Below, piece by piece: positions 109 through 5,212 of a stretch of 43,533 nt of DNA (the stretch's first letter is position 1; each line of letters starts with the position of its first letter). The notes below the pieces were generated by a model that saw only the letters and a list, made by a program, of their open reading frames with translations, was not told where the DNA came from and did no database searches. This DNA comes from Ignavibacterium sp. GTDB lineage: Bacteria; Zixibacteria; MSB-5A5; GN15; PGXB01. Position numbers and translations under genes: made by a program. Location: contig DYGG01000002.1 in the NCBI GenBank assembly GCA_020724775.1, forward strand, positions 62,992 through 106,524, in the 5' to 3' direction.

Positions 109-1926
109 ATGCCCGACTACAAGGATGCGACAGAATCTGGCACTGGAGTTTTTGTAAGTAAGCCGAAATCATCAGGTGACAAGACAGAAAGGCTGCGGTT
201 AGGAGACACCGGCAGCGTTCTGGCACAGATGGAAGCGGCGCTTGACGAAATTGCCGGTGAAAATCCCCGTATTGAAGCGGCCGAGAATTCTGCCACCACC
301 CGGCTCGAGGACCTGAGGGCAGTCCTGGAGGTTTCCCTGGCGGTGAATTCTTCACTGGTTCTTGAAGATGTGCTGCAGATGGTGATGCAGAAAGCGATTG
401 AACTTCTCTCAGCCGAGCGCGGTTTTATAATGCTTCTGGATGACAAAGGAGAACTTCAGTTCAAGACGGCGTATAACCTTTGCAAAGAATCCCTGATGGA
501 GGAGGATTTCCGGATTTCCAACTCGATAGCCAATCAGGTGGCGGCGAGCGGCAAATCGATTTATACCTCGGATGCCCAGGCTGACCAGAGATACGCCAAT
601 CAGAAATCGGTTCTGGAACTGCATCTTCGCTCCATCATGTGCGTGCCGCTCAAGATTAACAATCGGGTCATCGGGATAATCTATCTCGATAATTCCTCTC
701 AGGCAAAACTGTTCCTCAAATCCGACCTTTTTTTATTTGAACTTCTGGCGCAGCAGGCGGCGCATGCCATTCATAACGCCAGCCTGTATGACCGTCTTCT
801 CGACCTCAAACAGTACAATGAAAAAGTTGTCAATAATTCGCCGGTTGGAATAGTTGTCATTGACACCGACTATCATCTGGTGTCGATAAATGACGCCGCC
901 CTGGCGACGTTTGATAAAGATAAAGACAAAATCCGGCTCTTCACACCTAATGAGCCTTCGACCACGTTTTTCGAATTAATTCCTGAAGGGGAGCGGGGGA
1001 AGTGGCGTCAGATGATCGATATGGCGCTTGGCACCCGTCAGCCGCTGGAGGATTCGCGCTATTTTCATAATACCGGATATGACGAGAAAGTCTTTTCCGT
1101 CAAACTTTCTCCTATCAAAAAACTGCCATACGGGCACGATGGGCTGATTCTTATCATTGAAGATATCACCGAGAAAGTGATCATGGAAAAGTATGTGATT
1201 CTCTCCGAGAAACTGGTGGCGCGGGGCGAAATGGCGGCATCGATAGGCCATGAACTGAACAACTACCTGGCGATAATCGCCAACAATGCGGAACTGCTGT
1301 CGCTGAATCTTCAGCGGGGGCAAGCAGAGAAAGCCTCATACAACTCCAAGCAGATAATCGAGAGCATTTCCAAGATGAAACGGTTCACCGACGGTCTGAT
1401 GGATTTCTCCAAGATGGACACGGAGGTGGTGTCGTACGACATCAAGCATCTCATCGAAGACCTGCTCTTTTCGCTCAAGGCGCAGAACCGTTTCAAAAAG
1501 ATTGTCTTTTCAGTCGATCTGGGGGCGGTCTTACCATCGGTTCAGATTGATGTCGGACAGATTCAGCAGGTTCTGATGAATCTCCTCAATAATGCGGCAG
1601 ATGCCCTGGAGCAGAGGGGGAAAGATGAAGAAGCGGCCGGGAATCATGATTTTACCCGCAAGATAGAAATACAGGCGGCATTTGACGAACCGCGGGCGCA
1701 GATAAAGATATCTGTTGCCGACAATGGTTGCGGCATACCGGAGGAGGCGCTCTCCCGCATTTTTGTGCCGCACTACACCACCAAAGAAACCGGGCATGGT
1801 CTGGGACTGGCAAACTGCAAAAAGATAATCAAGAATCATGGCGGTGAAATTGCGGTGGTTTCCAAGCAGAATGAAGGCACCACATTCATTATCAGTTTGC
1901 CCCTGGAGCACGTTTCGAAAAAATAA
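109..1926 (+). CDS. Soluble GAF-PAS sensor histidine kinase
   Basis: A cytoplasmic two-component sensor kinase of 605 residues with no transmembrane segment or signal peptide. Domain order: a charged N-terminus, a GAF domain at about 67-228, a PAS domain at about 235-360, a HisKA dimerisation domain with H-box GEMAASIGHELNN (phospho-acceptor His381), and a HATPase domain with N-box MNLLNNAADAL, G1 box DNGCGIP and G2 box GHGLGLAN near the C-terminus. All ATP-binding boxes look intact, so it should autophosphorylate. No response regulator is present in the window, so the partner is elsewhere or upstream. The ATG at 109 follows AAGGTGA. The next gene, a Ser/Thr kinase, begins three bases after the stop, suggesting co-transcription and a shared pathway. 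The GAF ligand cannot be predicted. Confidence 0.93.
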   Translation: MPDYKDATESGTGVFVSKPKSSGDKTERLRLGDTGSVLAQMEAALDEIAGENPRIEAAENSATTRLEDLRAVLEVSLAVNSSLVLEDVLQMVMQKAIELLSAERGFIMLLDDKGELQFKTAYNLCKESLMEEDFRISNSIANQVAASGKSIYTSDAQADQRYANQKSVLELHLRSIMCVPLKINNRVIGIIYLDNSSQAKLFLKSDLFLFELLAQQAAHAIHNASLYDRLLDLKQYNEKVVNNSPVGIVVIDTDYHLVSINDAALATFDKDKDKIRLFTPNEPSTTFFELIPEGERGKWRQMIDMALGTRQPLEDSRYFHNTGYDEKVFSVKLSPIKKLPYGHDGLILIIEDITEKVIMEKYVILSEKLVARGEMAASIGHELNNYLAIIANNAELLSLNLQRGQAEKASYNSKQIIESISKMKRFTDGLMDFSKMDTEVVSYDIKHLIEDLLFSLKAQNRFKKIVFSVDLGAVLPSVQIDVGQIQQVLMNLLNNAADALEQRGKDEEAAGNHDFTRKIEIQAAFDEPRAQIKISVADNGCGIPEEALSRIFVPHYTTKETGHGLGLANCKKIIKNHGGEIAVVSKQNEGTTFIISLPLEHVSKK

Positions 1927-1929
1927 AAA

Positions 1930-4900
1930 ATGAATGCCTCGGCTATCGGAGAGGAATATGAAATAATCCGCTCTCTCGGTCAGGGAGGAACGGCGGAAGT
2001 ATTCCTGGTGAAAAACAGGAATAGGAAGGTTCATTCTGCTCTAAAAATGCCTTTGAGCCATAGCGCCGGGGACCTTGCAACATTTCGGGCGTTAATAAAT
2101 CGTGAATATGAAATAATAGGGGGGCAGCGTTTTCCGGGGTTGGTGCGTCTACGAAAATTAAACGATTCTCCCACTCTCCCCTATCTGGAAATGGAGTTCT
2201 GCCCCGGAAAGTCGCTGGATACGATAGGACGAATTGACGACCGGCAGGAACTATTGCGGCTTCTTTCCTCCTTAAGCATAACCCTTTATTATCTTCACCT
2301 GGCGGGCGTCGCCCACGGAGACCTCAAGCCGCATAATGTCTTTGTAATAAGCGATTCTCTTTCGGCCGGTCCGGGAGTGACCTTTATCAGCAAGATATCG
2401 GATTTTTCCCTGGCAATCAAAAATGGGGAAGATGTCGGCAAGAGGTTGGGAATAGGGACAGTCGGCTATATGGCTCCGGAAACAATTCGCAGCGGAGCGC
2501 TGGATTATCGCTCAGATATTTTTTCCCTGGGAGTTATCGTCTATCTGTTAGCGACCGGACGGCACCCTTTTATGGCTGATGACAGCGACCCGGTCTGTAC
2601 CAATGCCGCGATTCAGGAGATAGAGCCGCCGCCGCCATCGGCAATTCGTGCGGAGATACCGGCATCTCTTTCGGAAATCATAACGCAAATGCTGGATAAA
2701 CTCCCCGAGAAAAGGCCTCAGGACGGATTTGAACTCTGCCATCGGTTAAAAGCGGCCGGCTCAGACTACCCTTTTGAGAGAATTATCAGGCCGAAATATC
2801 TAATGCAGGCATGTAACAACCTTGACAATCAGCCGTTCCTGGAAAAAGAGTTTGTTCGATTCACGGCAGGTATCAAGAATCGCCTGTTTGACTTTGCCGG
2901 AACCAGGCGCAACAGTTTGAGAAGTCTGCTGGAGGTTAACTACTCACGCGGGAAATTTCTGTGGAAAGAGGGGGCTCTCGTGTCGGCATCTGATGCGCCA
3001 GAGGAGATAATTTTGCCTGCAAAACTGCGCCGTGCCCTGGAGAACGAGGTGAGAAGACTTACCTTTCAACAGAAGAGAATGGCTATAAAGATTGCCATTG
3101 CCGGTGATACTGAACGGGCAAAGAATCTGGGAGTAGAGCCGGAATCGGCGGAGCGCGAAACATATACTCGGCCTATTCTGTATTGCTTGCGAGAAAATAT
3201 ATCGGCAGCCACTTTACAAAGACAGTCAACGGTTCTGGCACAGAGGGCGATAGAGCAGTATAAGAGCATAGAACTGGGGGCGGAGCTATACCTTCAAGCA
3301 GGAGACTTCAAAAACGCCTATGCCGCAGTGATGGAGGCATCGGACCTCAGGATTAGCCGCAACGAGAATGCGGAAGCAGTAGCGCTACTGAGTGAACTGG
3401 AAGGACTGGCAGCGGGAGAGGAAGCGCGAAGCGAACTTCCGTTGATTTTAATGAAAAAAGCGGATGCCCAAAAAGGAATGGGAGAACTGTCGGCGGCTGA
3501 GGATTGCTATAAAAAGATTATCGCCTTGTATCAAAATGAGCCCCCGGATAAACTTCTCGCTGAGACCTATAAAGACCTGGGCGACCTTTACAGGATGAGG
3601 CAGGATTTTGAATCGGGGATATCGGCCCTTCAGAGAGCGGAAGAGATTTATTCGGCGCTGGGAGACCTTCTGGAATTGTCCCATACGATAAACAATCGGG
3701 GGAATATTCATTGTGTCAGCAACCGATTTGATGAAGCGTTGAAAACTTTCCGGATGGCGCTGCACATTCAAAAAAAGTTGGGAGCCAGGAAGGATATTGC
3801 TTCAACTCTGAATAACATTGCCGTCACTTATTTTTCAAGGGGGCGTCTGCGGCGGATGGTGACAATCCTCAACGCGGCACTTCGGATGAACGAAGAATGC
3901 GGCAACATGATAGAAATTGCCCGGGTGCATAATAATCTCGGTTTTGTGCATAATGAAATGGGTGAAACGGCAAAAGCGATTGCCAGCCTCTCGGAGTCGC
4001 TAAAGATAAACCAGAGAATAGGCAACAGAAGAGAACTTCTTTACAACTATGAGAATCTGATACAGGTAATGATAAGAGGCGGGCGACTTCGCGATGCTCT
4101 GCGATATCTTGCCGAGGGCGCGACGCTCTCCGAAGAACTGAATGATCGACATCACTCCAGCATGTTTGCCGGATTCGTTGGGATAATACAATGGAGAATG
4201 GGGCAATATGGAAAAGGGCAGGAAAATCTTCTTAAGGCGATAGCGGGGACAGCGGAACTGGATAATAGACTTGACCAGACATTGTATCAGTTGGCGCTGG
4301 CGGAACTTCATGGGTGCATCAATGACCATGAGGGAGCGTTGAAGATTTTGTCTGAGGCCGAAAAGGTCGCCGAGTCCATTAATGATAAACGGGCGGCAGC
4401 ATCCATTTCAACTTTACGGGCGGTTTTGAACCGAGATGTGGCATTGATGGAAAAGGCGGAGAAACTTGCCATTTCAAACAATGTGGCGCGAGACCTCCAG
4501 TTGGTTCAGTTGAGAAAGGGGCATCTTCTGCTGGAATACGGCAAACCGGATGAAGCGGTAAGCGTTCTTTCCGGTTTGAGATTCCTGTCAGATGAGGAGC
4601 ATATTGACATTGAAGCCGCCGGATATTTTCGAGACCTGGGCAAGGGGTATCTGGAAATCGGGAAAATCGATGAAGCAAAGGGCTGCTTTACTCAAGGAGC
4701 CAGCCTGGCGAAAAGAGTAGGCTTAATTCCGGAAATGGCTGAGTGCCTTATCGGAATGGGACGAATCAGCGCTATGTCCGGCTCTTTTGAAAGCGCGTAC
4801 GAATATTATCGCAAGGCAATCAGACTTATAAAGACGATGGCCGAAAGCATCGATGACGAGAACTTGCGGCAGCAATATCTTGAGGGTGGGAAGATAAATT

Positions 4901-4965
4901 ATCTTGCGGTTGAGATTAAGAACCTGAATCGGTTCCTGGGCAAAAAGATGGGGGCAGGCCGTTAG
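1930..4965 (+). CDS. Ser/Thr protein kinase fused to a long TPR array
   Basis: 1011 residues. The N-terminal protein kinase domain (about 8-275) has a glycine-rich loop GQGGTAEVF, ATP-binding Lys39 in SALKMP, catalytic loop HGDLKPHN (Asp131, Asn136), GTVGYMAPE and a DYRSDIFSLGV helix-F segment. Two positions differ from the consensus: HRD is HGD, and the magnesium-binding DFG is DFS (Asp158-Phe159-Ser160). The invariant Lys and both Asp residues are kept, so activity is plausible. A linker leads into roughly 570 residues of tetratricopeptide repeats (about 430-1000), a superhelix normally used for protein or peptide binding. There is no transmembrane segment. It follows the histidine kinase by three bases, so the two are probably one operon. 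Its stop codon lies inside the hairpin that terminates the opposing peptide gene. The architecture resembles bacterial kinase-TPR regulators; the substrate is unknown. Confidence 0.92.
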   Translation: MNASAIGEEYEIIRSLGQGGTAEVFLVKNRNRKVHSALKMPLSHSAGDLATFRALINREYEIIGGQRFPGLVRLRKLNDSPTLPYLEMEFCPGKSLDTIGRIDDRQELLRLLSSLSITLYYLHLAGVAHGDLKPHNVFVISDSLSAGPGVTFISKISDFSLAIKNGEDVGKRLGIGTVGYMAPETIRSGALDYRSDIFSLGVIVYLLATGRHPFMADDSDPVCTNAAIQEIEPPPPSAIRAEIPASLSEIITQMLDKLPEKRPQDGFELCHRLKAAGSDYPFERIIRPKYLMQACNNLDNQPFLEKEFVRFTAGIKNRLFDFAGTRRNSLRSLLEVNYSRGKFLWKEGALVSASDAPEEIILPAKLRRALENEVRRLTFQQKRMAIKIAIAGDTERAKNLGVEPESAERETYTRPILYCLRENISAATLQRQSTVLAQRAIEQYKSIELGAELYLQAGDFKNAYAAVMEASDLRISRNENAEAVALLSELEGLAAGEEARSELPLILMKKADAQKGMGELSAAEDCYKKIIALYQNEPPDKLLAETYKDLGDLYRMRQDFESGISALQRAEEIYSALGDLLELSHTINNRGNIHCVSNRFDEALKTFRMALHIQKKLGARKDIASTLNNIAVTYFSRGRLRRMVTILNAALRMNEECGNMIEIARVHNNLGFVHNEMGETAKAIASLSESLKINQRIGNRRELLYNYENLIQVMIRGGRLRDALRYLAEGATLSEELNDRHHSSMFAGFVGIIQWRMGQYGKGQENLLKAIAGTAELDNRLDQTLYQLALAELHGCINDHEGALKILSEAEKVAESINDKRAAASISTLRAVLNRDVALMEKAEKLAISNNVARDLQLVQLRKGHLLLEYGKPDEAVSVLSGLRFLSDEEHIDIEAAGYFRDLGKGYLEIGKIDEAKGCFTQGASLAKRVGLIPEMAECLIGMGRISAMSGSFESAYEYYRKAIRLIKTMAESIDDENLRQQYLEGGKINYLAVEIKNLNRFLGKKMGAGR

Positions 4966-4975
4966 CCCTGCCCCC
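4942..4975 (-). terminator. Intrinsic terminator of the peptide gene, overlapping the kinase-TPR stop
   Basis: An inverted repeat with a perfect 9-bp GC-rich stem (GGGGGCAGG at 4950-4958 against CCTGCCCCC at 4967-4975) and an 8-nt loop. On the minus strand it is followed within three bases by five T residues (plus-strand A run 4942-4946). There is no T-run on the plus side, so it points to minus-strand transcription, that is, the 23-residue peptide gene. Confidence 0.75.
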
Positions 4976-4996
4976 GCCATCAACTTTCAAAGGAGC

Positions 4997-5068
4997 TTAT
5001 TGCCCGCCAAGGCTTAATCCTACGGGGGCGATTTTCTCCTCAAGTCTCTCGATGGTGAGTGTGTACAT
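4997..5068 (-). CDS. 23-residue peptide, candidate RiPP precursor or signal peptide
   Basis: A 23-codon frame whose product starts MYTLTIERLEEK and ends APVGLSLGGQ. It is too short for routine gene callers but has a complete set of signals. On the minus strand, AAGGAGG (plus 5076-5082) sits seven bases before the ATG. A promoter-like TTGACT-16-TATTTA lies at 5185-5212, a hairpin in the leader at 5102-5116, and an intrinsic terminator at 4942-4975. The first half is charged and likely helical; the last ten residues are small and hydrophobic with a GG near the end, which could fit a leader plus core layout. There is no signal peptide or Cys. No radical SAM enzyme, peptidase or exporter is adjacent. 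It converges on the TPR-kinase gene. I do not recognise a named family. The gene call rests on signals rather than homology. Confidence 0.65.
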   Translation of the reverse strand: MYTLTIERLEEKIAPVGLSLGGQ

Positions 5069-5101
5069 CAATCCACCTCCTTCGAAGTTGAAGTTAACGT
5101 T

Positions 5102-5116
5102 CCCGGCTAAACCGGG
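5102..5116 (-). other. Hairpin in the leader of the peptide mRNA
   Basis: CCCGG-CTAAA-CCGGG, a 5-bp GC stem with a 5-nt loop, about 34 bases upstream of the peptide start codon on the minus strand. It would lie in the roughly 110-nt 5' leader predicted from the promoter. It could stabilise the message or regulate translation. No T-run follows, so it is not a terminator. Confidence 0.4.
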
Positions 5117-5184
5117 CTTCTACTTGTTTAATAATTGCGAATTTTCCTCTTAAGGGACTATCTTAGAACGCCTCATTTTCTAAT

Positions 5185-5212
5185 TAAATATTATTCTTTA
5201 GCCAAAAGTCAA
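5185..5212 (-). promoter_or_regulatory. Predicted sigma70-type promoter of the peptide gene
   Basis: On the minus strand, TTGACT (plus 5207-5212), a 16-bp spacer and TATTTA (plus 5185-5190). This would start transcription near 5178 and give a leader of about 110 nt before the peptide ATG at 5068. It lies in an AT-rich region typical of promoters. Confidence 0.5.

Follow-up and report, generated by a model that had tools for sequence, protein, structure and literature searches.

A conserved 23-codon gene of Zixibacteria as the probable precursor of a peptide matured by an RRE-site-2 protease

In the epipeptide system the short precursor YydF is processed by YydH, a membrane protease of the M50 type. 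Daptide precursors are reported to have the leader motif ELExMEAP in common and to occur next to an intramembrane site-2 protease that has an RRE fused to its N-terminus (PMC10036551), and their leaders to be cut after ELExxxxx (PMC12338566). Here we analyze a 43,533-nucleotide stretch of DNA from a member of the Zixibacteria (the window), in which a 23-codon gene lies on the minus strand between a promoter-like pair and a terminator (Table 1). We think it likely that this gene encodes the precursor of an RRE-dependent peptide system matured by a site-2 protease, with an exported core that is probably a signal linked to kinases. The maturation appears well supported by comparison of sequences, while the function is inferred.

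Table 1. Features of the peptide locus and its kinase neighbours in the window.
Feature	Position	Strand	Basis
GAF/PAS histidine kinase, 605 aa, adjoining the kinase-TPR gene	109..1926	+	Pfam HATPase_c, GAF, HisKA
Ser/Thr protein kinase-TPR protein, 1011 aa, convergent neighbour	1930..4965	+	Pfam Pkinase (E 2e-36), TPR_12 (E 1.8e-35)
Intrinsic terminator, stem GGGGGCAGG...CCTGCCCCC and T-rich tail	4941..4975	-	
3′ arm CTCCTTTGAAAGTTG, directly after the stop	4981..4995	-	kept in most same-family loci
Stop codon TAA	4999-4997	-	
Peptide gene, MYTLTIERLEEKIAPVGLSLGGQ*, 23 codons	4997..5068	-	translation; frame conservation; leader pN/pS
Predicted released core VGLSLGGQ	5000..5023	-	inferred from daptide cleavage after ELExxxxx
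Predicted leader MYTLTIERLEEKIAP, ELExxxAP type, L at -7, P at -1	5024..5068	-	alignment; daptide motif match
Ribosome-binding site AAGGAGG, 7 nt ahead of ATG 5068	5076..5082	-	sequence
5′ arm over the ribosome site, CAACTTCGAAGGAG	5077..5090	-	duplex with post-stop arm, z = -3.1 here
Leader RNA hairpin CCCGG-TTTAG-CCGGG	5102..5116	-	inverted repeat
-35-like TTGACT (5212-5207), 16-nt spacer, TATTTA (5190-5185)	5185..5212	-	promoter-like pair

The peptide gene and its conservation

The original prediction listed a promoter-like pair, a GC hairpin, AAGGAGG, an ATG, 23 codons and a GC-rich stem, and each of these is present on the minus strand. The terminator stem (4975-4950) comprises nine pairs, eight of them G-C, and the terminator overlaps the 3′ end of the convergent kinase gene; four terminators were found including this one, against 1.0 expected in shuffled sequences. 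The TTGACT pair is absent from the list returned by a generic promoter scan, and was therefore judged by alignment of the same-family upstream regions. TTGAC aligns across all 11 loci, the -10 region is TA-rich, and a repeat resembling the 5116-5102 hairpin is visible in the same regions. Rfam and tRNA scans of the window gave no match, and neither did searches of Pfam and NCBIfam with the 23-residue peptide. The gene is present as a single copy in its own genome, where no second copy was found.

How widely is the gene conserved? Of 15 same-family genomes, 12 carry the motif LEE[KR]IAP together with a short frame, and the named matches from a scan of the GTDB collection place its relatives in Candidatus Zixiibacteriota. 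Across that phylum the pattern GGAGG plus start codon plus LExx[IV]AP is matched in 81 of 129 genomes, the ribosome site being part of the pattern; reversing the pattern gave one match, in one of the same 129 genomes. Counts of this kind miss diverged members, and gene adjacency was assessed on draft genomes. In the leader codons of 12 same-family sequences the fraction of sites that differ is 0.418 for synonymous and 0.045 for non-synonymous sites (pN/pS 0.108), indicating purifying selection. The proposal had been of a short gene missed by gene callers, recognizable by a frame conserved in relatives and by the balance of synonymous and non-synonymous change, and both lines of evidence uphold it. 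Judged by these alignments, 4997-5068 is a real conserved gene and not a chance frame. At some loci there are two or three peptide genes in tandem (L212, L213 and L203, with three in genome G044), so the precursors can multiply.

The precursor and the RRE-M50-HlyD protein

An alignment of 21 diverse members (A2) has L9, E10, A14 and P15 invariant. Leaders of the Zixibacteria take the form [IV]E-x-LE(E/A)(K/R)(I/V)AP, with Leu at -7 and Pro at -1, in the register of the daptide motif. The leader half is nearly invariant and the tail is variable, with a length across phyla of 6 to more than 40 residues. Within the Zixibacteria the cores are 6-20 residues long, mostly uncharged and similar throughout the phylum, where the consensus is xGxSLGGQ. 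GG is present in 70 of 85 cores, S-x-GG in 59 and GGQ in 54, and none of the 85 contains Cys or ends in Thr. A Pup-like tag, which the GGQ end brought to mind, was dropped since 14 of the 54 GGQ cores extend beyond GGQ. By the alignment and the core tally the family meets the RRE-dependent RiPP-type criterion of a short precursor with a conserved leader and a variable core.

A leader/core layout had been suggested for the window's peptide, and is sustained by the near-invariant leader, the variable tail and the linked gene for an RRE-site-2 protease. The boundary then drawn, which separates a charged half from a Gly-rich tail, falls after IAP, which is the cleavage site predicted from the daptides. 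The statement that no matching family is known has to be revised, as the leader fits the daptide motif (PMC10036551), though the product is no daptide. We found no relevant paper in which LEEKIAP or LEERIAP is printed. VGLSLGGQ, the last ~8 residues, is probably set free and secreted as a tiny peptide; cleavage and export are both inferred, and there are no mass-spectrometry data.

The linked protein has ~775 residues, with an M50 site-2 protease part (HEFAHG ... NPLLKYDGYYLLSD) and a HlyD part. Its best NCBIfam match is the daptide leader protease daptide_HExxH (NF041824; 216 bits, E 7e-64), below the curated cut-off of 300, and there is a weak match to YydH/LiaK (NF058609; E 1e-14). Over the first hundred residues, 8 of 11 members match Pfam PqqD, and the PDB entries nearest in sequence to the N-terminus are PqqD, TfuB1 and TbiB1, all of them RREs. 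The N-terminus was modelled by AlphaFold with modest confidence (mean pLDDT 71.6), and the top Foldseek matches to the model are TbiB1 and TfuB1, both solved with leader peptides (probability 0.98-1.00, E 0.002-0.08). Given the PqqD match, the PDB sequence and fold matches, and the M50 and HlyD parts, we take the protein to be most likely a fusion of an RRE with a site-2 protease and a HlyD part, the fold of the RRE being that of a model. The RiPP-type criterion of a linked protein with an RRE (PqqD-like) domain is thus met by Pfam, PDB sequence and fold. Neither M50 nor HlyD is mentioned in the main text of RRE-Finder or of a 2025 RRE survey.

Outside the window's family the RRE-M50-HlyD gene lies directly upstream of the peptide on the same strand in 40 of 59 loci. 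Within that family it adjoins the peptide in 0 of 11 loci; a homologue lies 21-25 kb off on the same contig in seven genomes, among them the window's own, where the gene is outside the window at G000:C75:43710-46040, ~22 kb from the peptide. One genome that is 83% complete (G005) has the peptide and gave no match for the protease. In 60 relatives both genes were found in 39, the protease only in 11, the peptide only in 3 and neither in 7 (Fisher p 0.005; one genome, G009, was covered solely by the stricter pattern). If protease and peptide form a pair, then a diverged peptide is expected beside the protease where the pattern finds none. This was so in 8 of the 9 protease-only genomes with a readable downstream flank, with peptides such as MKYTLKVEVLETRVAPVGISLGGQ and MANYKLTVEVLEVRIAPLGLSQGGQ; no diverged peptide was seen in that flank in the ninth (G059), and G009 and G043 are outside the nine because the contig ends at the protease flank. 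Since 8 of the 11 protease-only genomes hold a diverged peptide, the pattern-based co-occurrence understates the link.

The gene is not restricted to the Zixibacteria, and by the same sequence comparisons recurs in at least six further phyla. Short genes that share the leader, and whose tails are long and of low complexity, were found by the named scan in Acidobacteria, Verrucomicrobia, Rokubacteria, Eisenbacteria, Gemmatimonadetes, Nitrospirae, Planctomycetes and MAGs labelled Deltaproteobacteria. An RRE-M50 homologue is present in 24 of 25 non-Zixibacteria genomes having the leader, and for at least 17 of the 24 with both its distance from a peptide is ~3 kb or less; in a separate neighbourhood comparison 14 of 23 loci had the RRE-M50-HlyD family (cluster D0).

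Some loci of these phyla have features of their own. Acidobacterial peptides with SHGSK/GGSHKS repeats (L095, L098, L135 and L140) lie near RRE-M50-HlyD and up to three recurrent genes, encoding an unrecognized 337-aa protein, an unrecognized 232-aa protein that may be an oxygenase, and a FemAB-like protein. At a locus from Terriglobia (L122) a TPR-GAF-sigma54-activator-like protein is encoded upstream of the peptide and RRE-M50-HlyD downstream, which hints at regulatory linkage outside the Zixibacteria. At four further loci the leader, e.g. MRQRLRVEELEERIAPT, forms the start of large proteins, whose length as read is from 569 to at least 1000 residues (L113 and L138, assigned to Brocadiia, and L091 and L112, from MAGs). 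Because the genomes concerned also hold a distant RRE-M50 homologue, the leader may sort big secreted proteins as well.

The long repetitive His/Ser/Gly tails in Acidobacteria can be taken as a sign that the same RRE-M50-HlyD maturation yields a toxin or bacteriocin-like peptide, or a structural or metal-binding one in long-tailed members, and the daptides, which share leader and protease type, are reported to be haemolytic (PMC10036551). We consider this unlikely. The short, mostly uncharged and cysteine-free cores of the Zixibacteria are alike across the phylum, unlike diversifying toxins, and no immunity gene or ABC exporter was recognized among the recurrent neighbours.

Kinase neighbours and a possible function

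We read 81 Zixibacteria loci, and limited the kinase count to the 77 with at least 600 bases after the peptide. A convergent Ser/Thr-kinase-TPR gene is found in 71 of these, about 80-560 bases away, and in most Zixibacteria loci the GAF/PAS histidine kinase comes next after it. A consistent kinase link was seen in the Zixibacteria alone. Six peptide loci are without the convergent kinase-TPR gene (L210, L211, L212, L236, L063 and L078), and in the first three a histidine-kinase-like gene takes its place after the peptide. The other recurrent neighbours, which we named from their sequences, include a ClC-type channel (at 21 loci), a putative surface protein (at 19) and a Nudix-like protein (at 13). 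Genes for a radical SAM enzyme, a YcaO protein, an aminotransferase or a methyltransferase were not recognized among the recurrent neighbours at the Zixibacteria loci. To the left of the window, before the histidine kinase, there are small genes resembling an anti-sigma antagonist, an RsbW-type kinase and a SpoIIE-type phosphatase (G000:C75:57428-62935), identified by reading alone.

In the mechanism that we propose, the RRE domain of the RRE-M50-HlyD protein would bind the leader, that is the first 15 residues, the M50 domain would cut after Pro15, and the HlyD part would help to carry VGLSLGGQ across the envelope, cleavage site and export being inferred. As no tailoring enzyme that might modify the core beyond proteolysis, a further RiPP-type criterion, was recognized among the recurrent neighbours at the Zixibacteria loci, the mature product would probably be a short linear peptide, although genes at a distance are not excluded. 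The octapeptide might then serve as a conserved signal, made or sensed under the control of the adjacent kinases, a role inferred because the core is near-fixed across the phylum and the kinases are tightly linked. This signalling role is the weakest step. Species-specific pheromones do not usually have a core as constant as this one, which counts against our best explanation, as do the distance between protease and peptide in the window's family, the genome with the peptide but no protease match, the protease score below the daptide cut-off and the modest RRE model with its Foldseek E-values of 0.002 or worse. The reality of the gene, the division into leader and core, and the linkage to RRE-M50-HlyD and kinases are read from sequence, and the RRE fold from a model.

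TPR domains commonly bind short peptides, and the linkage to the kinase-TPR gene is tighter than the adjacency to the protease. The peptide might thus remain in the cell and act directly on the kinase-TPR protein as its inhibitor, activator or substrate, with the link to the protease reflecting turnover. This too we find improbable. The link between peptide and protease reaches other phyla, whereas that to the kinase does not, and the invariant part is the AP-ended leader, as expected for a tag that is cleaved.

Translation in the window's family may also be restrained, if the ribosome site pairs with the bases that follow the stop. The same-family arm CAACTTC(G/A)(A/G)AGGAG is complementary to the 3′ arm (5090-5077 with 4995-4981), and at one locus (L060) an inserted spacer shifts the 3′ arm downstream while the arm is retained. 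No double-sided covariation of this stem was seen in the same-family loci. Phylum-wide the pairing is no better than in shuffles (p <= 0.05 in 14 of 81 loci, median z -0.17), so general sequestration was rejected; we infer that the site could be sequestered in the window's family only. With a hairpin leader, the pairing arm and a terminator the locus could be thought to act as an RNA, an attenuator or small RNA in which the frame is incidental. There is very little room for this. The codons are conserved, as the leader pN/pS attests, which excludes an RNA-only feature; the peptide is conserved across the phylum where the pairing is not; and the gene has its own terminator, with the next gene on the opposite strand.

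A gene that callers can miss is now tied to a recognizable maturation machine. The pairing of a daptide-type leader with an RRE-site-2 protease, without the chemistry of the daptides, is extended to the Zixibacteria and six or more further phyla, and the leader motif provides a simple handle for finding many more precursors. VGLSLGGQ is a defined octapeptide, open to synthesis and to testing as a signal in an uncultured phylum, and to our knowledge no peptide signal has been described in the Zixibacteria. A broader view can be put forward only tentatively, as a possibility that falls short of being probable: a phylum-wide module in which RRE-M50-HlyD would export the near-fixed xGxSLGGQ, to be sensed via the adjacent kinase pair, and which would be one branch of an unrecognized superfamily with ELExxxAP leaders in many phyla, possibly including large secreted proteins.

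Comparison with known systems

In the RRNPP systems (Rap, PlcR, Rgg), where a cytoplasmic TPR receptor binds the peptide after its re-import, a short peptide gene lies next to that of a TPR regulator, a comparison of how the systems work. Here the TPR neighbour is a Ser/Thr kinase, convergent and in an uncultured phylum, and the likeness is one of gene adjacency only. The epipeptide system YydF/YydH (LiaK; NF058609) likewise combines a short precursor with an M50-type protease, but has a radical SAM epimerase, not found among the recurrent neighbours here, and another leader. RRE-guided lasso peptides (TbiB1/TfuB1) provide the top structural match, the RRE fold that clamps the leader; they have a cyclase, of which there is none among our recurrent neighbours, and here the RRE is fused to M50-HlyD.

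The daptides (MpaA/MpaP, TfDap, SaDap), reported from Actinomycetota, Bacillota and one Pseudomonadota cluster, have a C-terminal Thr that is converted to a diamine and the enzymes DapB, DapC, DapD and DapM. For all the agreement in leader motif and protease type, we rule out that the gene encodes a true daptide precursor, as not one core ends in Thr, no DapB, DapC, DapD or DapM-like gene was recognized among the recurrent neighbours within 4-8 kb, where the neighbours are kinases, and the mature part, at only ~8 residues, is much shorter. The protease of the peptide system also differs in carrying a fused HlyD part. Yet the leaders meet the daptide motif criterion, with LEEKIAP or LEARIAP in the same register: the window's ELEEKIAP differs from ELExMEAP at the Met-Glu positions and keeps Pro at -1. 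Both systems have short genes beside the protease; in the daptides an RRE fused to a site-2 protease removes the leader, and the protein linked here, which scores below the curated daptide cut-off, would do likewise.
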